Notes under the pieces: model-generated
What the model saw: only the letters and a program-made list of their open reading frames with translations
Told to the model about the DNA's origin: nothing
Database searches by the model: none
Position numbers and translations under genes: made by a program
Part shown: positions 1 to 41,750 of the stretch, one piece after another
Layout: each line of letters begins with the position of its first letter
How positions within the stretch are numbered: position 1 is the first letter of the stretch
Origin: Oscillibacter valericigenes
GTDB lineage: Bacteria > Bacillota > Clostridia > Oscillospirales > Oscillospiraceae
DNA: 64,000 nucleotides
Direction: 5' to 3'
Assembly: GCF_021531315.1 (NCBI RefSeq)
Contig: NZ_JAFBIQ010000008.1
Location: 1 to 64,000, forward strand

Positions 1-453
1 GGCGACCCGCTGGAGATCTACACAAGCAAGGAGGGCGAGGTCATCTTCAAGAAATACTCGCTCATGGGCGGCGTGGACGAGTTCGCCGCGCAGATCTGCG
101 AAACGCTCAGCAAGACCACCGGCGTAAGCGTCGCCGTGACGGACCGCGACAGTGTGATCGCCGCGGCGGGCAGCGCGCGGCGCGACCTGATCGGTAAGCG
201 CATCAGCACCGAGCTGGAGCAGATCATGGAGGACCGCGCCATCTACCGCGCGCAGGAGGGCAAGCGCAGCGTCTATGTCACCGACACGCTCGACCGCTGC
301 TGCGCGGCCATCGCCGCGCCCATCATCTCTGAGGGCGACGCGCTGGGGCTGGTGCTGTTTGTGGAGAACGAGGGCGAGAGCCATGTCGGCGAGACGGAGT
401 ACAAGCTCGCGCAAGCCATCGCCTCCTTCCTCGGCAGGCACATGGAGAGCTGA
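1..453 (+). CDS. spoVT: Stage V sporulation protein T (SpoVT), C-terminal part
   Basis: The window opens inside this gene; the frame is open from base 1 and ends with TGA at 453. The visible 150 residues are a GAF-like domain beginning just after the DNA-binding AbrB-type domain, which would lie upstream. The linker (GDPLEIY, then VIFKKYS) and the domain start (LMGGVDEFAAQICETLSKTT) match the SpoVT pattern. SpoVT is a forespore transcription regulator that tunes sigma-G dependent genes. It points to a spore-forming host. AbrB paralogues usually lack the GAF part, so SpoVT is the best call. A hairpin terminator follows directly. Confidence 0.88.
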   Translation, partial: GDPLEIYTSKEGEVIFKKYSLMGGVDEFAAQICETLSKTTGVSVAVTDRDSVIAAAGSARRDLIGKRISTELEQIMEDRAIYRAQEGKRSVYVTDTLDRCCAAIAAPIISEGDALGLVLFVENEGESHVGETEYKLAQAIASFLGRHMES

Positions 454-456
454 AAA

Positions 457-489
457 AAGGGGAGCGTCCCGCAGGCGGGGCGCTCCCTT
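457..489. terminator. Bidirectional hairpin terminator
   Basis: A 15-16 bp GC-rich stem (457-472 with 475-489) and 2-nt loop sit between the convergent spoVT and hydrolase genes, flanked by an A run on one side and T-rich sequence on the other. Confidence 0.75.
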
Positions 490-500
490 CCTTTGTGTTT

Positions 501-1028
501 TCAGTCGTTGATGACATTGATCTGGCACATCTTCATCGTTTCCAGCGCGTGACGGTGGCCCTCCGGCGTCACGCCGGCGCAGCAGCTCGCGTCCACGGTG
601 ATGGGCGCCTCGGGCATCGCCGCCTTGAAAAGCAGCGCATTGGACACCACACAGATGTCGGTGCAAAGGCCGACCAGCTCCAGCTCCAGCGCCTCCTGCG
701 CGCGCTCGGTCATGAGGATCGCGGCGAGCTTATTCGAGCCGAAGGTGGGCTTATCGATGACCGTCGCCTTCTCCGCGGCCTGGGCGATCTCATCATTGAG
801 CTGCCAGCCCTGCGTGCCCTCGATGCAGTGCTCGACGGGGAGATTGCGCCCCTCCTGCGTGTCGAGATAGTTTTCATAGTGCGTGTCGCGCGTGAGATAG
901 ATATTCCACGGGTCGTACTCCTTCATTTTCTCTAAGACCCTCGGCACGATCTGCTCCGCCTCCTTCGTGCCGAGCGAGCCGTTGATGAAGTCGTTCTGCA
1001 TGTCGATGACAACAAGAATTTTACGCAT
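501..1028 (-). CDS. Isochorismatase/nicotinamidase-family cysteine hydrolase
   Basis: 175 residues, the usual length for PncA-like cysteine hydrolases. The triad is visible: Asp in VVIDMQNDF (about residue 9), Lys in IDKPTFGS, and the nucleophilic Cys in the region GLCTDICVVSNAL. The likely reaction is deamidation of nicotinamide to nicotinate in NAD salvage, but family members also act on other amides, so no symbol is given. The start is set by AGGAGGG about 8 nt upstream. It is the last gene of the minus-strand block that includes cysS, 48 nt downstream of that gene. Confidence 0.82.
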   Translation of the reverse strand: MRKILVVIDMQNDFINGSLGTKEAEQIVPRVLEKMKEYDPWNIYLTRDTHYENYLDTQEGRNLPVEHCIEGTQGWQLNDEIAQAAEKATVIDKPTFGSNKLAAILMTERAQEALELELVGLCTDICVVSNALLFKAAMPEAPITVDASCCAGVTPEGHRHALETMKMCQINVIND

Positions 1029-1076
1029 AGCGATGCCCTCCTGTACGATGGGGCGGAGCCCCTTTGATGTTGTTGC

Positions 1077-2525
1077 TTACACTCTTTTCCACTTCGCGCC
1101 GTTGGGAATATCCGTCACCTCGATGCCCTGCGCCTTCAGCTCGTCGCGAATACGGTCGGCCTCGGCGAAGTTCTTCGCCTTCTTCGCCTCTGCGCGCCGG
1201 CGGATAAGACTTTCAATGGCCTCGTCCGCCACGCCGTCCTCGGCGATGACCGTAAACGCGCCAGCGCTCTGCACGGCGGCCGCGTTCCTCTCGCGCAGCG
1301 CAGCGGCCTTGGCGATGAGATCAAGGCTGAGCACCATGTCAAGGTCGGCGATGACCGCGAGCTTCGTTGCGTCGCCCGTCTTGGCCTTGAGCACATCGTA
1401 GAGCACCGTGACGCCCATGGCGGTGTTGAGGTCGTTGTCCATCTCCTTAGAGAATTTCGCGCGGTACTCGGCGCGCACGGCCTCGTCGACCTCGCCCTCG
1501 CTCTTGAGGTTTGCGATCTTCGTGAGCAGCTTATTATACGCGAGCGCGGCGTTGTCAAGGTTCTCCCAGGTGAACACAAGGCTCTTGCGGTAGTGGCTCT
1601 GCAAGCAGAAGAAGCGGTAGACCAGCGGGTCGTAGCCCTTTTCCTCCAGCAGCGAAACGGTCAGAAACTCGCCCTTGGACTTGGACATCTTGCCGTCGCT
1701 CGTGTTGAGGTGCGCGACATGGCACCAGTGCGGGCACCACGCATGGCCGAGGTAGCTCTCGCTCTGCGCGATCTCGTTCGTGTGGTGCGGGAAGGCGTTG
1801 TCCACGCCGCCGCAGTGCAGGTCGAGGTATTCGCCGTTGAACTTCATCGAAATGCCGGAGCACTCGATGTGCCAGCCGGGATAGCCCACACCCCACGGGG
1901 AGTCCCACTTGAGCGCCTGATCCTCAAACTTGGACTTGGTGAACCAGAGCACGAAGTCGTTTCGGTTCTTCTTGTTCGTGTCCTCCTCCACGCCCTCGCG
2001 CACGCCCACGGCGAGATCCTCCTCGTTGTGGTCATTGAAAATATAGTAGCGCGCGAGCTTGCTCGTGTCGAAGTAGACATTGCCGCCGGCGAGGTAGGCG
2101 TAGCCTGTGTCGAGGAGCTTGGTGATGATCTTGATATAGTCGTCAATGAGGCCCGTGGCGGGCTGCACGATGTCGGGGCGCTTGATGTTGAGCTTTTTGC
2201 AGTCGGCAAAGAAGGCGTCGGTGTAGAACTGCGCGATCTCCATGACGCTCTTGTGCTCGCGCTTGGCGCCCTTGAGCATCTTGTCCTCGCCCTCGTCGGC
2301 GTCGCTCGTGAGGTGGCCGACGTCGGTGATGTTCATCACGCGGTTGACGCTGTAACCCGCGAAGCGCAGGTACTTCTCCAGCACATCCTCCATGATGTAG
2401 CTGCGCAGATTGCCGATGTGGGCAAAGTGATAGACGGTCGGGCCGCAGGTGTACATCTCGACATGGTTCGGGGTATGGGTCTTCAGCTCTTCCTTCTTAT
2501 GCGTTGCGGAATTATAGAGATACAT
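1077..2525 (-). CDS. cysS: Cysteine--tRNA ligase
   Basis: 482 residues, a class I aminoacyl-tRNA synthetase charging tRNA-Cys. The HIGH-type signature is FAHIGNLRSY near residue 35, the KMSKS loop is at GKMSKSKGEF (about residue 280), and zinc/cysteine-site residues appear in YTCGPTVY, HIECSG and HHTNEIAQSE. The C-terminus carries the anticodon-binding helical DALR region. AAGGAG lies 7 nt before the ATG. It is downstream of pgsA on the same strand (34 nt gap), consistent with co-transcription. Confidence 0.97.
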   Translation of the reverse strand: MYLYNSATHKKEELKTHTPNHVEMYTCGPTVYHFAHIGNLRSYIMEDVLEKYLRFAGYSVNRVMNITDVGHLTSDADEGEDKMLKGAKREHKSVMEIAQFYTDAFFADCKKLNIKRPDIVQPATGLIDDYIKIITKLLDTGYAYLAGGNVYFDTSKLARYYIFNDHNEEDLAVGVREGVEEDTNKKNRNDFVLWFTKSKFEDQALKWDSPWGVGYPGWHIECSGISMKFNGEYLDLHCGGVDNAFPHHTNEIAQSESYLGHAWCPHWCHVAHLNTSDGKMSKSKGEFLTVSLLEEKGYDPLVYRFFCLQSHYRKSLVFTWENLDNAALAYNKLLTKIANLKSEGEVDEAVRAEYRAKFSKEMDNDLNTAMGVTVLYDVLKAKTGDATKLAVIADLDMVLSLDLIAKAAALRERNAAAVQSAGAFTVIAEDGVADEAIESLIRRRAEAKKAKNFAEADRIRDELKAQGIEVTDIPNGAKWKRV

Positions 2526-2559
2526 AGAAAAACTCCTTTACAGGAAAAATTTACAATTC

Positions 2560-3093
2560 TCAGTCCGGTTCGCGGAACACATCGGCGTTTTTGGCGAGGT
2601 ATTCCAGACCGGAGTAGGCGGTGGTGAGCACGATGACGGCGTTGCACAGCGGATCGAACCAGGCATAGCCGCCGAAGACATTGAGCAGCATCGCGCACAG
2701 GCAAATCATGGTCGAGGCGGTCTTGACCTTGCCCGACCACGCCGCGGCGATGACGCGCCCCTGCTCGACTGCCACGAGCCGCATACCGGATACGGCAAAC
2801 TCGCGCAGCAGCACGACCGCCAGACACCAGCCGGGCATCTGCCCGATCTCGACGAGGTAGCACATCGCCGCCATCACGAGCACCTTGTCCGCCAACGGGT
2901 CCATGAACTTGCCGAAGTTGGTGACCTGATTATAGTGGCGGGCGATGTAGCCGTCGGCAAAATCGGTCAGGCAGGCGATGACGAACACAGCGAAGGCGGC
3001 GTAGCGCGCGTAGGGGAAGTCAAGATACAAGATCACAAGGAAAATGGGGATCAGCGCCACCCGCGCAAGGGTGAGCTTATTGGCAGTCGTCAT
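2560..3093 (-). CDS. pgsA: CDP-diacylglycerol--glycerol-3-phosphate 3-phosphatidyltransferase
   Basis: 177-residue integral membrane enzyme that makes phosphatidylglycerophosphate from CDP-diacylglycerol and glycerol-3-phosphate, the first committed step to phosphatidylglycerol and cardiolipin. The CDP-alcohol phosphotransferase signature D-x2-DG-x2-AR-x8-G-x3-D-x3-D is present from about residue 44 (DFADGYIAR then GKFMDPLAD). Several hydrophobic helices flank it. AAAGGA lies upstream of the ATG. The rimO-pgsA order, with recA nearby, is common in Firmicutes. Confidence 0.94.
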   Translation of the reverse strand: MTTANKLTLARVALIPIFLVILYLDFPYARYAAFAVFVIACLTDFADGYIARHYNQVTNFGKFMDPLADKVLVMAAMCYLVEIGQMPGWCLAVVLLREFAVSGMRLVAVEQGRVIAAAWSGKVKTASTMICLCAMLLNVFGGYAWFDPLCNAVIVLTTAYSGLEYLAKNADVFREPD

Positions 3094-3161
3094 CTGTGAA
3101 CAGTCCTTTCAAGGCGCTCGCGCGCCGTTGTTTGCTATTTTTGCCGCGTCGGCGCGGCGGT

Positions 3162-4487
3162 TCATTCCTCCGCCAGCTCGCCGGTCAGCTCGCCGTCCAT
3201 CGCGCCGGTGATGCGCACGGGTACGAACTCGCCAGCCGCGACCTCGCGGGAGGCGGAAAAGTAGATGCGTCCGTCGATGTCGGGCGACTCGGCGTAGCTG
3301 CGGCCGGTGAAGAGCATCGACTGGCCGTCGAAGCCCTCGCAGAGGACCTCGAGCACATCGCCCTGCCGCTCATCGTTCCATGCGTCGATGATGTCGCTCT
3401 GAAGGTCCACCACCAGCTCGGCGCGGCGCACGGCCTCGTCGGTGTCGACTCGCTCCATCCTCGCCGCGCGCGTCCCCTCCTCGGGAGAGTAGGGGAATAC
3501 GCCCGCGCGCAGCATCTTCTGCTCGCGCAGAAATCCGCACAGCTCGTCGAACTCCGCCTCGCCCTCGCCGGGCAGGCCCGTGATGATGGAGGTGCGCAGC
3601 ACGAGACCGGGGATGCGCTCGCGCAGCCGGCCGAGCAGCGCGCAGATGTACTTCTTGTCGCCGCGGCGGTTCATCTTTTTGAGAATTTTGTCGTTGCAGT
3701 GCTGGAGCGGAATGTCAAGGTACTTGACGATCTTATCCTCGCGCGCGATGACCTCGATCAAATGCTCGTCGATCCACTCAGGGTAGAGATAGTGCAGCCG
3801 GACCCAATGAAAATCGAGCTTGCACAGCTCCTCTAAAAGCTCGGCCAGATGGGGCTTGCCGTCCCAGTCCATGCCGTAGCGCGTGATGTCCTGTGCGATG
3901 ACGAGCAGTTCCTTCACGCCGCCGTCGGCAAGGCTCTTCGCCTCGGCGAGCACATTTTCCATCGCGCGTGAGCGGTATTTGCCGCGCAGCTTCGGAATGA
4001 TGCAGAACGCGCACCAGTTGTCACAGCCCTCGGCGATGCGCAAAAAGGCGTAGTGGCAGGGCGTGGTGAGCACGCGGCCGAACTCATCGACCGGCGCGTT
4101 GATGTCGTCAAAGCGGCTGACGCTGCCGCCCGCCATCACGGTCTCCACTGCGTCCACAATGTCCTTGTAGCTGCCGGTGCCGAGGATGCCATCCACCTCC
4201 GGAAGCTCCGCCGTCACCTCGCCCTGATAGCGCTGCGTCATGCAGCCGGTGACGAGGATCCTTTGCAGCTTGCCGGCCTTTTTCAGCTCCGCCATCTGCA
4301 AAATGTTGTCGATGGCCTCCTCGTTCGCGCTCGAGAGAAAGCCGCAGGTGTTGACCACCGCGACATCGCAGCCCTCGGCGCCTGCGCAAAGCTCCATGCC
4401 GGCGTCGCGGCACAGCGCCATCATCTGCTCGCAGTTGACCGTATTCTTCGCGCAGCCGAGCGAAATAAAATGCAGTTTATACGCCAT
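3162..4487 (-). CDS. rimO: Ribosomal protein S12 methylthiotransferase RimO
   Basis: About 441 residues, a radical SAM methylthiotransferase that modifies an aspartate of ribosomal protein S12. The N-terminal MTTase domain has its three cysteines in SLGCAKNT, VVNTCGF and VTGCMTQ. The radical SAM motif C-x3-C-x2-C is in EGCDNWCAFCIIP (about residue 150). A C-terminal TRAM-like domain ends the protein. Two ATGs are possible; the second (4487) is chosen because GGGAAG is 6 nt before it, whereas the first (4493) directly abuts that motif. RimO is preferred over MiaB because of the SLGCAKNTVN start. Confidence 0.93.
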   Translation of the reverse strand: MAYKLHFISLGCAKNTVNCEQMMALCRDAGMELCAGAEGCDVAVVNTCGFLSSANEEAIDNILQMAELKKAGKLQRILVTGCMTQRYQGEVTAELPEVDGILGTGSYKDIVDAVETVMAGGSVSRFDDINAPVDEFGRVLTTPCHYAFLRIAEGCDNWCAFCIIPKLRGKYRSRAMENVLAEAKSLADGGVKELLVIAQDITRYGMDWDGKPHLAELLEELCKLDFHWVRLHYLYPEWIDEHLIEVIAREDKIVKYLDIPLQHCNDKILKKMNRRGDKKYICALLGRLRERIPGLVLRTSIITGLPGEGEAEFDELCGFLREQKMLRAGVFPYSPEEGTRAARMERVDTDEAVRRAELVVDLQSDIIDAWNDERQGDVLEVLCEGFDGQSMLFTGRSYAESPDIDGRIYFSASREVAAGEFVPVRITGAMDGELTGELAEE

Positions 4488-4508: not shown

Positions 4509-5140
4509 TTACGCTTCCTCGTCCGCGTCCGTCAGCGCCGCGCCCGCCGTCCGCAGGGCGGTCTTGACCTCACCCCACGAAAAGCCGCGGCGCAGCAGCG
4601 CGTCCGACAAGCGTTTATATTCCTTTTCGTTTAAGGGCCTTCCCCTTGTCCGCGCCGCGATGACGCGCGCGAGGGTCTCCTGTGCATCGGGGGCTGTTTC
4701 CAGTGCCCCGTCCCACAGCTCGCGGGGAACGCCGCGGCGGTACAGCTCGTCGCGCAGACGCGCGCTGCCGTAGCCCTGCGCGCTGTAATGGCGCACGAGC
4801 ATGGCGGCATAGGCCGCGTCGTCCAGCGCGCCGACATTCTCCAGATACTCCGCCGCCGCGTCGGCGTCATCCGCCTCGGAGCCCTTTTGCACGAGGCGGC
4901 GCGTCAGCTCGCGCTTGGAGAGCGGACGGGCGGAGATCATATTGGCTGCGCGCACGCGCGTTTCGCTGCGCGCGCCGCATCTGCGTAATTGTACCACAGT
5001 CTCGGGTGAAATGTCCAGCCCCACATATAAGCCGAAATGCAGAAGCTCGCTCTCGGTGATCCGAAGGAGGTCTCCCCCCTCCAGATACACGAGAACGCGC
5101 TCCTGCTTATGCTTCGATCTTTCGATGCGCTCGACTCTCA

Positions 5141-5141
<1 letters not shown>
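4509..5141 (-). CDS. recX: Recombination regulator RecX
   Basis: 210 residues, Arg- and Leu-rich, all helical, the RecX pattern of tandem three-helix repeats (LSKRELTRRLVQKG, then YGSARLRDELYRRGV and GFSWGEVKTALR). RecX binds RecA filaments and modulates them. The start ATG shares its A with the recA stop (TGATG overlap), so the two are translationally coupled. Similarity between RecX proteins is low, but the position right after recA is diagnostic. Confidence 0.9.
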
Positions 5142-6244
<1,103 letters not shown>

Positions 6245-37658: not shown

Positions 37659-37687
37659 TTGACAAGAGTGCGGGAATGGCTTAGTAT
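37659..37687 (+). promoter_or_regulatory. Promoter of sdpR-sdpI
   Basis: Perfect TTGACA (37659-37664), 17-nt spacer, TAGTAT (37682-37687). Confidence 0.68.
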
Positions 37688-37689
37688 CT

Positions 37690-37709
37690 ATTTAGAAAAG
37701 CATCTAAAT
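37690..37709. promoter_or_regulatory. Perfect inverted repeat, probable SdpR operator
   Basis: ATTTAGA-N6-TCTAAAT, lying just after the -10 where a bound repressor would block initiation. A lone half-site ATTTAGA occurs upstream of the -35 at 37634-37640. Autoregulation is inferred from family habit and position. Confidence 0.65.
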
Positions 37710-37730
37710 GCTTTGAGAGGGGTGAACGGC

Positions 37731-38003
37731 GTGGGCCTGAGCGAGACGATGAAGGCGCTGGGCGATCCGGTGCGGCGAGAGATTTTGAACCTGCTCAAGG
37801 GCGGGCGCATGACGGCGGGCGACATCGCGGGCCGCTTTGAGATGACGGCGGCGACGGTCTCCTACCACCTCTCGCAGCTCAAAAAGGCGGGACTTATTTA
37901 TGAAAGCCGCGAGAAGAACTATATCTATTACAGCCTCAACGCCTCCGTTTTGGAGGAGGTGCTGCTGTGGTTACAGGATTTGAGGGGGGAGAGGGAACCA
38001 TGA
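37731..38003 (+). CDS. sdpR: ArsR/SdpR-family transcriptional regulator
   Basis: 90 residues from the GTG at 37731, chosen because GAGAGGGG is 8 nt upstream and the protein then starts in the family style (M)GLSETMKALGDPVRREIL. A winged helix-turn-helix follows, with the recognition helix in MTAATVSYHLSQLKKAGL and a wing at REKNYIYYSLN. SdpR family members repress their own operon with the membrane protein SdpI. The stop overlaps the sdpI start (ATGA). Confidence 0.88.
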   Translation: MGLSETMKALGDPVRREILNLLKGGRMTAGDIAGRFEMTAATVSYHLSQLKKAGLIYESREKNYIYYSLNASVLEEVLLWLQDLRGEREP

Positions 38004-38656
38004 AGATAAACAAAAAAGAACTGCTGCTGACCTCGCTGGTCTGCCTGCTGCCGCTGCTTGCGGGCGCGGCGCTCTACCCGCGCTTGCCCGAAACGATGGC
38101 GACGCATTGGGGGATCGATGGAACGGCAAACGGCTGGTCGTCGCGCGCCGCCACGGTGTTCGGCTTGCCGCTGTTTATCCTGGCGCTGCATCTCGTCTGC
38201 TTTTACGCCGAGAGCCACGGGACAAACAGAAATATGAATCCCGCGCTGCGGACGGTGCTGCTGTGGTTCTGCCCCGCAGTGTCGCTGCTCGGCGGTGCGC
38301 TCACGCTCGGCACGGGACTGGGCTATGAAATGCACATCAGCACCGTGGTGCCGGTGTTCATGGGGCTGCTGTTCCTGATCCTTGGCAACTACCTGCCGAA
38401 GATCCGGAGGAACCTCACCGTGGGTATCAAGCTGCCGTGGACGCTTGCGAGCGAGGAGAACTGGAGCCGCACGCATCGCATCGCGGGATTTCTGTGGGTG
38501 CTTGCGGGGCTGGTGACGCTTGCCGTCACACTGCTCGGCGCGTGGTCGTCCGGCCTGTTCTTCGCGCTGCTTGTGCTGACGGCGGGCATCCCCACGCTCT
38601 ATTCCTATTGCTATTACCGCCGCCACGAAAGGGAGGACAAGGATGGAAACGATTAA
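38000..38656 (+). CDS. sdpI: SdpI/DUF1648-family membrane protein
   Basis: 218 residues, six predicted membrane helices. N-terminal DUF1648 motif LPETMATHWGIDGTANGWSSR (about residue 29), later SdpI motif GNYLPKIRRNLTVGIKLPWTLASEENWSRTHR. In Bacillus, SdpI gives immunity to the SdpC toxin and sequesters SdpR. No SdpC-like toxin is visible here. 4-nt overlap with sdpR. Confidence 0.88.
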   Translation: MKINKKELLLTSLVCLLPLLAGAALYPRLPETMATHWGIDGTANGWSSRAATVFGLPLFILALHLVCFYAESHGTNRNMNPALRTVLLWFCPAVSLLGGALTLGTGLGYEMHISTVVPVFMGLLFLILGNYLPKIRRNLTVGIKLPWTLASEENWSRTHRIAGFLWVLAGLVTLAVTLLGAWSSGLFFALLVLTAGIPTLYSYCYYRRHEREDKDGND

Positions 38657-38858
38657 GCCGGGACGCTACCGCCACTTCAAGGGCAACGAATATGAGGCCG
38701 TCGGCCTTGCAAAGCACAGCGAAACGCTGGAGGAGCTGGTCGTCTACCGCGCGCTCTACGGCGAGCGCGGGCTGTGGGTGCGCCCCGCCGCGATGTGGAA
38801 CGAGACCGTTGAGCGCGACGGCGTGACCTGCCGCCGCTTTACCTATCTGGGCGAATGA
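38643..38858 (+). CDS. DUF1653 domain-containing protein
   Basis: 71 residues: IKPGRYRHFKGNEYEAVGLAKHSETLEELVVYRALYGERGLWVRP is the DUF1653 pattern. Beta-rich, function unknown. It starts inside the last codons of sdpI (14-nt overlap) and overlaps the next gene at ATGA, so translation is coupled. Confidence 0.85.
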   Translation: METIKPGRYRHFKGNEYEAVGLAKHSETLEELVVYRALYGERGLWVRPAAMWNETVERDGVTCRRFTYLGE

Positions 38859-39370
38859 CGGACTACACGCTTATCCGCTCGCGGCGGCGGACGCTCTCGA
38901 TGGAATTGAAGCGCGACGGCACGCTCGTCGTCCGTGCGCCGCTGCGCCTGAGCGCGGAGAAGATCGAAGCCTTTGTCGCCGCGCATGAGGACTGGCTCGC
39001 GCGCGCCCGCGCGCGGCAGGCTGTGCGCCTTGCCGCGCACCCTGAGCCGACGGAGGCCGAGCGCGAGGCGCTCATTGCAAAAGCTGAGACGGAGCTGCCC
39101 GCGCGCGTGGCGTACTGGAGCCGCATGACGGGCCTCACGCCGACCGGCGTGAGGATCACGGGCGCGCGGACGCGCTTCGGGAGCTGCAGCAGTAAAAACA
39201 GCCTCTGCTTTTCGTGGCGGCTGATGCAGTATCCCGACGCGGCCATCGACCTTGTGGTGGTACATGAGCTGTGCCATATCGCCCACCGTGACCATGGCGC
39301 GGGCTTTTACGCCCTGCTCGGCAGCATTCTGCCCGATTACCGCGAACGCATGAAGCTGCTGAAAGAATAA
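38855..39370 (+). CDS. YgjP-like (DUF45) M48-type metallopeptidase
   Basis: 171 residues. HELCHIAHRDHG (about residue 137) is the zinc motif; TRFGSCSSKNSLCFSWRLMQYP before it is the DUF45 signature. It is likely a small cytoplasmic zinc peptidase or related enzyme with unknown substrate. 4-nt overlap with DUF1653; last gene of the sdp unit. Confidence 0.88.
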   Translation: MTDYTLIRSRRRTLSMELKRDGTLVVRAPLRLSAEKIEAFVAAHEDWLARARARQAVRLAAHPEPTEAEREALIAKAETELPARVAYWSRMTGLTPTGVRITGARTRFGSCSSKNSLCFSWRLMQYPDAAIDLVVVHELCHIAHRDHGAGFYALLGSILPDYRERMKLLKE

Positions 39371-39406
39371 AGAGGTTGGAAAGCCGAAGGGCTTTCCAAC
39401 CTCTTT
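39369..39406. terminator. Bidirectional hairpin terminator
   Basis: A perfect 17-bp stem with GAAG loop between convergent genes, ending in T4. Confidence 0.9.
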
Positions 39407-39427: not shown

Positions 39428-40108
39428 TCAGTCGTCCTCAAGGAGACGAAGGCCCGCCGTATCGGAAACGGGCAGGGTGAAGCAGACGGACTTCGCCTTG
39501 CTCTCCATGCCCGCTTTGCACATGATGGCGGACATGATGGCGTTGCGCTGCTCACGGTGGACGACGATGTAGATCATTTCCTTCTCGGCGGCGAGGGAGA
39601 TGCCGAGGAACTTCTCCGCACCCTCCATGCCGGTGCCTTTGGCGTGAATGACCGTGCCGCCCGCCGCGCCCGCGCCGCGCGCCGCATCCATGATGAGGTC
39701 GCTGTATCCGTGGTTGGCGACGACGATCAAAAGCTCATAATTGGTGTCCTTCATGGTGGATTCCTCCCCCTTCTGATAATTCTGATGCTCGGTCAAAAAT
39801 TGCAGCTCGCGCCGCCCACCGACCGAGCTGAGCGGGACGATGAAGGCGATGCCCGTGCCGGGGACATCGATCCGCAGCTCGCGGCGCAGGCCGCGGCGCA
39901 GCTCCTCCCACTTTTCGCCTGTGACGAAGCTCATGAAGACGCATTTGTCGCTGCGCTCTAAGCCGAGGTAATTGAGCATATCGCTGCTCGCCGTGCCAAG
40001 GGCGAGCGAGATGAGCTGTACGGGGACCTGCCGCTCGCGGTAGAACGAGAGAAAGGCTGTGAGCTTGCTGCGCTCGACGATGGTGACCATCAGATAGAGT
40101 TCACTCAT
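39428..40108 (-). CDS. Tandem PII-like signalling protein
   Basis: 226 residues in two ferredoxin-like PII halves. The second half (from about residue 118) carries a PII-type segment GGTVIHAKGTG (T-loop base/nucleotide site) and ends in a long beta region. The first half is more divergent. It lies 12 nt downstream of the DUF1538 gene. By analogy with GlnK-AmtB, a nucleotide-sensing control of that membrane protein is inferred; ligands are unknown. Confidence 0.78.
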   Translation of the reverse strand: MSELYLMVTIVERSKLTAFLSFYRERQVPVQLISLALGTASSDMLNYLGLERSDKCVFMSFVTGEKWEELRRGLRRELRIDVPGTGIAFIVPLSSVGGRRELQFLTEHQNYQKGEESTMKDTNYELLIVVANHGYSDLIMDAARGAGAAGGTVIHAKGTGMEGAEKFLGISLAAEKEMIYIVVHREQRNAIMSAIMCKAGMESKAKSVCFTLPVSDTAGLRLLEDD

Positions 40109-40120
40109 ATACTACCCTCC

Positions 40121-41650
40121 TTACAGGTCGATGATGGCGAGGTCGTCCGAGGCGAGGACGCTGCCGGAGAACGACGGAGCGGGAGCCGCCGCGCCGCGCT
40201 TTGTGCGCAGGCGGTAAATGAGGCCAAGCCCCTGAATGGTGAGCAGCGGCGTCATGGCGACCATGGCGACCACGCCGAAGGCGTCGGTGACGATGCTGCC
40301 GCCGACCGCCGAGCATGCGCCCATCGCAAAGGGCAGCAGGAAGGTCGTCGCCATCGGGCCGGAGGCGACGCCGCCGGAGTCGAAGGCGATGGCGGTGAAG
40401 AGCTTGGGGACGAAGAACGAGAGCGCGATGGCGAGCGCGTAGCCCGGCACGAGCAGATAGAAAATGGAGATGCCGGTGAGCACGCGGAGCATCGCAAGGC
40501 CGACCGACACGGCAACGCCGATGGAGAGCGAGTGCTTCATCGCACTGCCGGGGATCGCGCCGTCGGTCAGCTCCTCGACCTGACGCATGAGGACATAGAC
40601 CGCGGGCTCGGCCATGACGATGAAGTAGCCGATGAGCATACCGATGGGGATGAGGATCCAGTTATAGCGCAGCCCCGCGATGACGCTGCCGAGGTAGTTG
40701 CCCGCGGGCATGAAGCCGACATTCACGCCGGTGAGGAAGATGACGAGGCCGAAATAGGTGTAGGCAAGTCCTACGCCGATGCGGATGAGCTGCTTGCGCT
40801 CAAGGCGCAGGGAGACGAGGTTGAAAACGCCGAAGAAGGCCGCGATGGGGAGGAGCGAGATGGCGATCTCCTTAAAATAGGTCGGGAAGGCGACGAAGAA
40901 GAGCTGCCAGAGCGCGGCGGTGTCGCCGATCTCGGGGATGACGACGGGGGTGTAGCTGCCGCCGTCCGGTCGGAAGATGAGCCCGAGGAGCATCACCGCG
41001 AGGATGGGCCCGATGGAGCAGAGCGCGACGAGGCCAAAGCTGTCGTTCGCGCTGTGCTTATCGCTTCGGATGGCGGAGACGCCGACGCCCATCGCCATGA
41101 TGAACGGCACGGTCATGGGTCCCGTGGTCACGCCGCCGGAGTCGAAGGCGACGGCGAGAAAATCGCGCGGCACGAACATCGCCAGAACGAAAACGATGAT
41201 GTAAAAGCCCACCAGCAGCGTGTTGAGCGGCACAGAGAGGAGCATACGCAGCATGGCGAAGCAGAGGAACAATCCCACGCCGATGGCGACGGTGAGAATG
41301 AGGATGCGGTTCGGCACCGCCTGCACCTGATTGGCCAGCACCTGAAGGTCCGGCTCGGAGATGGTGATGAGAAAGCCCAGCAGGAAGCCGAGCGTGAGCA
41401 TGATGCCGACCCTGCGCGTTTTTGTGATGCACGCGCCCACGCGCTCGCCCATCGGCGACATGGCCAGCTCCGCGCCGAGGGAGAAGAACATCATGCCCAC
41501 CACCAGCAGCACCGCGCCAAAGAGAAACGCCATCAGCACGCTCGTCGGAAGGGGGGCGATGGTAAAGCTCAGCACGAGCACGATGGCGAGAATGGGCAGC
41601 ACCGCGGCAAGCGATTCCTGCATTTTTTCGTTGAGTTTGCTGCGATACAA
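40121..41650 (-). CDS. DUF1538 multi-pass membrane protein
   Basis: 509 residues from a TTG at 41650, chosen because AAGGAG is 8 nt upstream. Two tandem DUF1538 halves, each with the same signature AFDSGGVxxGPM (about residues 185 and 430) and around six helices. The duplication and the membrane topology suggest a transporter; no substrate can be assigned. Operon with the PII-like protein. Confidence 0.85.
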   Translation of the reverse strand: MYRSKLNEKMQESLAAVLPILAIVLVLSFTIAPLPTSVLMAFLFGAVLLVVGMMFFSLGAELAMSPMGERVGACITKTRRVGIMLTLGFLLGFLITISEPDLQVLANQVQAVPNRILILTVAIGVGLFLCFAMLRMLLSVPLNTLLVGFYIIVFVLAMFVPRDFLAVAFDSGGVTTGPMTVPFIMAMGVGVSAIRSDKHSANDSFGLVALCSIGPILAVMLLGLIFRPDGGSYTPVVIPEIGDTAALWQLFFVAFPTYFKEIAISLLPIAAFFGVFNLVSLRLERKQLIRIGVGLAYTYFGLVIFLTGVNVGFMPAGNYLGSVIAGLRYNWILIPIGMLIGYFIVMAEPAVYVLMRQVEELTDGAIPGSAMKHSLSIGVAVSVGLAMLRVLTGISIFYLLVPGYALAIALSFFVPKLFTAIAFDSGGVASGPMATTFLLPFAMGACSAVGGSIVTDAFGVVAMVAMTPLLTIQGLGLIYRLRTKRGAAAPAPSFSGSVLASDDLAIIDL

Positions 41651-41750
41651 GGTAAAAGCTCCTTTCCCGAAGTGTATTATGACTACTATACTACATGATA
41701 CCATAGAAAGATGTTACGATAGTGTTAAGATTGCTCTGCGGAAATTCCTC

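Follow-up and report, generated by a model that had tools for sequence, protein, structure and literature searches.

A DUF1538 Membrane Protein and a Tandem PII-Like Protein Are Encoded as a Conserved Pair That May Form a Switched Cation/Proton Antiporter

Two adjacent genes in a 64,000-nt stretch of Oscillibacter valericigenes DNA (the window; contig NZ_JAFBIQ010000008.1) encode a DUF1538 membrane protein and a tandem PII-like protein, and on balance we lean toward reading them as an operon for a cation/proton antiporter of the UmpAB type with its own dedicated PII-like switch. The pair suggests a so far undescribed bacterial way of adjusting ion balance. Few bacterial sensors are as well known as the PII proteins. 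In the consulted part of a 2023 review, the transporters named as PII-controlled carry either nitrogen sources or bicarbonate (PMC10710835). If our reading is true, PII would act on a cation/proton antiporter as well, and a switch of this type would also govern pH and salt balance; DUF1538, for which one experimentally described pair was found in the literature, would gain a third component, and a PII gene would have two products from one frame. Antiport by UmpAB was known beforehand; the probable inverted repeat, the internal start, the split loop motifs, and the link to PF00999 are added here.

The DUF1538 gene lies on the minus strand, where its longer open reading frame spans positions 40121 to 41704 (527 aa). 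A TTG at 41650, with AAAGGAG 8 nt upstream of it (41659 to 41665, minus strand, read from the sequence), is a likelier start than 41704, and the double-domain, UmpAB-like membrane protein was placed at 40121 to 41650 from the open reading frame, Pfam, and this Shine-Dalgarno site. PF07556 matches the protein twice (464.4 bits against a curated cut-off of 22.6, Pfam), as domain 1 (40976 to 41593, minus strand) and domain 2 (40217 to 40846, minus strand), with a motif repeated in both halves, AFDSGGVTTGPM / AFDSGGVASGPM; this agrees with the earlier note, which had described a duplicated DUF1538 protein with a repeated AFDSGG signature and had called the membrane protein unrelated to AmtB. The tandem PII-like gene (39428 to 40108, minus strand, 226 aa) begins with an ATG 12 nt after the DUF1538 stop (40121), the spacing claimed beforehand and read again from the sequence, and the interval holds its ribosome binding site, GGAGGG (40115 to 40120, minus strand), directly after that stop. 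Beyond the gene, a hairpin and then a T-rich stretch (39370 to 39405, minus strand, recognized by eye) form a possible terminator. The hairpin meets the end of a convergent plus-strand gene (38855 to 39370), presumably metallopeptidase-like by its VVVHELCHIAHRDH motif, and the window also holds, at 37659 to 38656 on the plus strand, what we take to be a gene for a small ArsR-like regulator and, after it, one for an SdpI-like membrane protein.

Pfam recognizes P-II (PF00543) only in the second half of the PII-like protein (residues 126 to 221; E value, 3.9e-9; 37.2 bits against a cut-off of 25), and a scan up to an E value of 1, with filters that drop weak matches, listed P-II and DUF2179 only. 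Both halves score against iterated HMMs of the family made from its relatives (78 and 104 bits). In the AlphaFold model (mean pLDDT, 82.3; pTM, 0.80), two consecutive domains show a PII-like order of strands and helices, each with poorly ordered residues at the place of the T-loop. The N domain (39785 to 40108, minus strand) is classed as PII-like by the family HMM and by the secondary structure order of the model, so that the two-domain, fused tandem read earlier from the letters stands. Foldseek matched the model to GlnK1 (2j9c; E value, 3.4e-5), VIA aligned its residues 124 to 223 with 1hwu (Z, 10.9; 84 aligned; rmsd, 2.2), and SbtB was among the nearest folds of the C domain (39431 to 39754, minus strand; 6mmo; Z, 10.5, tied with many PII proteins). 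The structure models of both proteins are monomers. In the organism's own genome (98.9% complete), no other PF00543 match was found at an E value of 0.01. An ordinary GlnK-AmtB copy was considered and rejected, given the DUF1538 partner and the lack of a canonical PII match in that genome.

PF07556 is common in this group, with matches in 84 of 249 genomes of the phylum and in 67 of 196 of the class. In the phylum set (80 stretches among the matches listed, with some genomes giving two), a PII-like open reading frame is next downstream of DUF1538 on the same strand in 78; one miss (L102) ends at a contig end, and the other (L061) is a true exception, in which a convergent gene adjoins DUF1538 and whose genome (G218) carries a tandem PII (L214) on another contig (C77). 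The named-genome set (best 80 loci) has the pair in 78, both misses stopping at a contig end, and the class/genus set has it in 40 of 41 distinct loci, the single miss being cut by a contig end. Across these three sets, which may share species, the pair is kept in 196 of the 197 loci not cut by a contig end (phylum: among the matches listed); the earlier note had proposed checking its conservation, and frequent separation was not seen. Between the DUF1538 stop and the beginning of the PII domain lie no more than 269 nt, with a median of 4 to 17 nt. Within the window's genus, DUF1538 is present in 13 of 18 genomes, its own included, and the other 12 all have the tandem PII. Nine of 72,556 plasmid records have DUF1538; all five that were read have the pair, with the PII annotated as P-II, two of them are Alphaproteobacteria (Chelativorans, Methylocystis), and the eight plasmid records matching the window's PII-like protein are all among the nine. 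A search of viral contigs confirmed none. Because the pair is so conserved, chance adjacency is excluded, and, judged from gene order, an operon partnership of DUF1538 and PII is near certain.

The pairing was not described in the literature searched, mostly freely available papers seen in part. The main texts of PMC5484666, PMC5996927, and PMC6055358 contain neither PII nor P-II as a term, the letters PII occur in PMC7221264 only as part of a peptide motif, and P-II is absent from PMC13255231. For PII-like proteins with antiporters or other transporters, the pairing was likewise absent from titles and the first part of abstracts of mostly freely available papers.

Both partners occur single, as neighbors, or fused. 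With D for DUF1538 and P for PII, the phylum set comprises DD+PP (40 loci), D+D+PP (11), D+P (9), D+D+P (6), and D+D+P+P (4), and the remaining ten loci have a mixed, repeated, broken, or PII-less form. Single DUF1538 goes with one PII domain in 9 of 9 cases in this set, and fused DUF1538 goes with two wherever PII is present and uncut. This matching of domain numbers, and the keeping of the pair through single, paired, and fused forms at all but one assessable locus, argue against the PII-like protein being mainly a soluble sensor for other targets, such as a c-di-AMP or nucleotide receptor, in which case adjacency would reflect shared expression and not contact. We hold that alternative to be improbable, while noting what speaks for it: PII proteins can have several targets, according to the part of the review available to us (PMC10710835), a few PII genes of the group lie away from DUF1538, and a c-di-AMP riboswitch precedes two of the operons.

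These two riboswitches (RF00379) lie on the minus strand directly before the DUF1538 operon in two genera (L050, 74.9 bits, 5071 to 5198; L093, 81.6 bits, 4749 to 4896) and are 2 of the 80 c-di-AMP riboswitches found in 49 of 80 genomes. Among 48 loci scanned with Rfam, c-di-AMP was the only riboswitch class before DUF1538, in these two, with that of L034 lying downstream; a motif scan of 165 loci (L032 to L196), some with little upstream sequence, gave no further riboswitch (2 of 165 in total). The organism's own genome gave no c-di-AMP riboswitch, and the Rfam scan of the window returned tRNA only. By rough arithmetic, well under 0.05 chance placements of a c-di-AMP riboswitch before DUF1538 would be expected, and c-di-AMP signals potassium in many Gram-positive bacteria, as stated in the consulted part of PMC8822347. 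The c-di-AMP link of the operon is offered as a hint and as no general rule.

For PII-like genes away from DUF1538, a PII-group profile was run over the same 249 genomes (among the matches listed) and over 24 of them in full. Matches of about 75 bits and up were mostly of the DUF1538-linked kind, and below about 50 bits, N domains that match less well appeared together with canonical PII and with a second group of PII-like proteins (both among the matches listed). Twenty stretches from the matches listed were read, 13 with DUF1538, one cut, and six, L214 among them, without a DUF1538 neighbor. In L212 (87 bits; 262 to 2103), about 10 nt separate PII from a preceding PF00999 antiporter with TrkA_C; in L227 (49 bits; 2752 to 4436), PII precedes a PF00999 antiporter, and in L211 it faces an ArsP_1 permease. 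Seventeen weaker matches among those listed were also viewed (L237 to L253); seven adjoin a PF00999 antiporter (L237, at 252 to 1889, L239, L243, L246, L249, L250, and L252), seven resemble, on visual inspection, PII linked to nif or amt, and the other three are L238, L240, and L244. PII-like genes adjoin PF00999 antiporters in nine loci in total among the matches listed, and this repeated neighborhood is the best independent hint that DUF1538 here is an antiporter; PF00999 is another cation/proton antiporter family with the same kind of PII-like partner. Two other loci were seen in passing: a PII gene that follows transhydrogenase subunit PNTB (841-residue open reading frame) with no DUF1538 beside it (L210, 148 bits, 408 to 3547), and a truncated or frameshifted PII-like remnant (L213, 2938 to 3396) in a genome without a DUF1538 match (G049).

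UmpAB of Halomonas zhaodongensis, a DUF1538 pair, is a measured Na+(Li+,K+)/H+ antiporter; co-expressed, it gives Escherichia coli KNabc, a laboratory strain lacking nhaA, nhaB, and chaA, salt and alkali tolerance, and its exchange of Na+(Li+,K+) for H+ in KNabc vesicles was best at pH 9 (PMC5484666). DUF1538 is also among the 20 top-ranked Pfam families in a prediction of growth pH (PMC13255231, Table 1). The earlier note had called the solute unknown, which needs qualifying now that a relative in the same Pfam family proves to have been measured. The window's protein falls below the UmpA and UmpB equivalog cut-offs (NF041627, 160.9 of 490 bits; NF041628, 139.4 of 500 bits) and is, from these scores, a DUF1538 relative and not a UmpA/UmpB equivalog; being so far under the cut-offs, it may use a different ion. 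Cation/proton exchange is the probable activity here. The clones that gave UmpAB activity in E. coli are described without mention of a PII, so PII would be at most a regulator. The DUF1538 protein might instead carry something other than Na+ or K+, an organic solute or another ion, with the PII sensing its metabolism much as in SbtB/SbtA. The low equivalog scores would suit such cargo, as would the ammonium, nitrate/nitrite, urea, and bicarbonate carried by the PII-controlled transporters listed in the part of the review consulted (PMC10710835), but the PF00999 cation/proton antiporters beside PII-like relatives, the acidic motifs conserved across the DUF1538 family, and the place of DUF1538 as a growth-pH feature (PMC13255231) all point away from it, and we rate it as rather unlikely.

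UmpA and UmpB are each predicted to have seven spans (PMC5484666). For topology, K and R were counted in loops, with loop limits and spans set by hand from the model helices. The window's protein has a K+R bias of +4 in domain 1 and −5 in domain 2; among fused DUF1538 proteins, the mean is +5.06 for domain 1 and −5.82 for domain 2, with domain 1 above domain 2 in 125 of 125. Gene pairs have +1.72 for the first gene and −3.80 for the second (25 each), and the values of nine true single-domain proteins run from −2 to +1. Five of the 14 rows labeled single (L034, L040, L075, L099, and L102) were left out of that last group, their partner domain being cut or broken; their biases (−6, −7, +4, −7, and +6, respectively) fit halves of fused or paired proteins. 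The opposite charge bias of two homologous halves suggests that the window's protein is probably an inverted-repeat transporter, in which domain 1 would have its N terminus inside and domain 2 would probably be inverted relative to it; from charge alone, single-domain DUF1538 proteins may insert in both orientations.

In the numbering of the window's DUF1538 protein, each half carries two acidic residues, E117 (SEPDL) and D188 (AFDSGG) in domain 1 and E366 (AEPAV) and D442 (AFDSGG) in domain 2. In a 15-row DUF1538 alignment, E366 and D442 are invariant, E117 is kept in at least 90%, and D188 is replaced by Glu in two rows; across 73 closer rows, all four are invariant. These residues are likely candidates for ion or proton sites, one pair per half. 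The DUF1538 model had no Foldseek match at an E value of 0.001 or better (best, 8qrs; E value, 0.014), and a sequence search for solved DUF1538 relatives gave none at an E value of 1 or better. In VIA, the best Z scores (5.4 for MRP4 and 5.2 for CLC-7) lie within the noise stated for helical proteins, so the fold is shown to be neither new nor old.

The canonical PII B-loop motif is G[DE]G[KR]. It occurs in 0 of 301 domains of the PII-like family, in which PGxGIAF and GGTI..RGxG..E are conserved instead; for GlnK, the B-loop is given as TGxxGDGKI in the consulted part of PMC6516651. The window's N domain has a B-loop-like PGTGIAF (39842 to 39862) and is without GGT, and its C domain has AGGTVIHAKGTG (39632 to 39667) and is without PGxGI; the GGTVIHAKGTG segment reported earlier for the second half was found there. 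Single PII domains of the phylum set have a PGxGI-like motif in 27 of 31 and GGT or GAT in 30 of 31. The named-genome tandems, the window's nearer relatives, divide the two: of their 74 N domains, 66 have PGxGI and 2 have GGT/GAT, and of their 74 C domains, 2 have PGxGI and all have GGT/GAT; the division is weaker in the wider phylum tandems (PGxGI in 46 N and 41 C domains of 57; GGT/GAT in 34 N and 57 C domains of 57). The two domains may now form one joint site, or each may have degenerated. Loss of nucleotide-site residues, which the earlier note had said would count against PII control, applies to the canonical B-loop and does not extend to the family's own motifs.

Between the two PII domains is a candidate internal start (39752 to 39767, minus strand), with GGAGG (39763 to 39767), an 8-nt spacer, and an ATG (39752 to 39754), which would give the C domain alone. 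TTG and ATG are both start codons. In an alignment of 73 tandem PIIs, 40 have Leu, 23 have Met, and 10 have another residue in the column of the window's Met119, and a Shine-Dalgarno site precedes the internal TTG/ATG. Leu in this column is TTG in 40 of 40 rows, while TTG makes up 14.8% of the Leu codons in these genes and does not exceed 22% in any other column with at least 30 Leu; the rows are related by descent, and so are not independent trials, and other Leu columns in the same rows vary. Counted at a duplex energy of −7 or better in the linker, with expectations from codons redrawn for the same protein, an internal start with a Shine-Dalgarno site is present in 69 of 74 named-genome tandems (23.2 expected) and in 55 of 57 phylum tandems, the window included (about 31 expected). 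A narrower earlier scan, which stopped before the start codon in the window's row and probably in others, gave 40 among the 74 (19.9 expected) and 23 among the 57 (9.7 expected). The start is also present in 18 of 23 class-set tandems and in all 12 of the genus set, and the joint between DUF1538 domains, taken as a control, has no excess (9 of 80 and 5 of 45, with 7.3 expected for each).

The TTG-only Leu column and the Shine-Dalgarno site between the domains make it highly probable, as far as codon statistics reach, that the second PII domain is also made alone, giving two products from one PII gene. The start could otherwise be left over as an unused relic from the time when two PII genes fused: in some loci, PII is encoded by two separate genes, from which the fused form plausibly came, and 5 of 41 further tandems miss the duplex-energy threshold. 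A relic would sit poorly with Leu rows that use TTG without exception, and with an excess over synonymous resampling in both large sets that the DUF1538 joint lacks, and we give it little credence. The conserved in-frame internal start between PII domains is new here; no PII isoform from internal initiation was found in titles and the first part of abstracts of mostly freely available papers.

In the mechanism we propose, the homologous, oppositely oriented DUF1538 domains would form an inverted-repeat transporter, and the PII-like protein, nearly always next downstream, is shown by this conservation to be a dedicated partner. With the second, internal start of the tandem gene, which codon statistics strongly suggest, the cell would make both the two-domain protein (N-C) and free C domain. 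On the cytoplasmic side, these may come together in a PII-type ring that sits on the antiporter and, depending on its bound ligand, blocks or frees it. The ligand would probably be a nucleotide or another small metabolite, held by the PGxGIAF and GGTI..RGxG loops in place of the canonical ATP B-loop, and exchange of Na+ or K+ for H+ would be tuned to energy, pH, or osmotic state. We infer direct control of the DUF1538 protein by PII to be probable; an N-C-C ring on the antiporter is speculation. In the consulted part of the review, PII control seems restricted to transporters able to act as trimers (PMC10710835), and the UmpAB paper calls that pair a hetero-dimer (PMC5484666), which counts against a PII switch for DUF1538. 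A wider version, in which a general class of PII-like switches serves DUF1538 and PF00999 antiporters, the tandem and free C domain close an N-C-C ring, and a joint site forms from the N-domain B-loop and the base of the C-domain T-loop, is put forward only tentatively and is more doubtful than the core proposal.

Among known systems, GlnK-AmtB likewise has a PII-type protein encoded beside a membrane transporter, in the part of the review consulted (PMC10710835), but here the partner is DUF1538 and the PII is a tandem with a different loop motif. SbtB-SbtA, from the same part of that review, also joins a PII-like partner to a Na+-linked secondary transporter (SbtA is a Na+/bicarbonate carrier; PMC10710835), but the transporter family differs and the PII here is a tandem. 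Like PstA/DarA, as described in the consulted part of PMC6516651, the PII-like protein is without the classic PII ligand loops; PstA/DarA is a c-di-AMP receptor and two DUF1538 operons carry a c-di-AMP riboswitch, and the PstA/DarA family is absent from the Pfam listing of the window's protein up to an E value of 1, from which weak matches are filtered. The DUF606 family includes antiparallel membrane proteins in single, paired, and fused form (Lolkema 2008, cited through the consulted part of PMC3962082), and DUF1538 resembles it in that singles have near-zero bias, pairs are oppositely biased, and fusions are probable inverted repeats; DUF1538 is a different family, in which every form is accompanied by a PII-like partner. 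UmpAB shares PF07556 and two homologous halves that are required jointly, shown there as a hetero-dimer, and is described without any PII, umpB being the last open reading frame named on the 4.2-kb clone (PMC5484666). Unlike UmpAB, the protein of the window is under the UmpA/UmpB equivalog cut-offs, has its two DUF1538 halves fused, and is followed by a PII-like partner.
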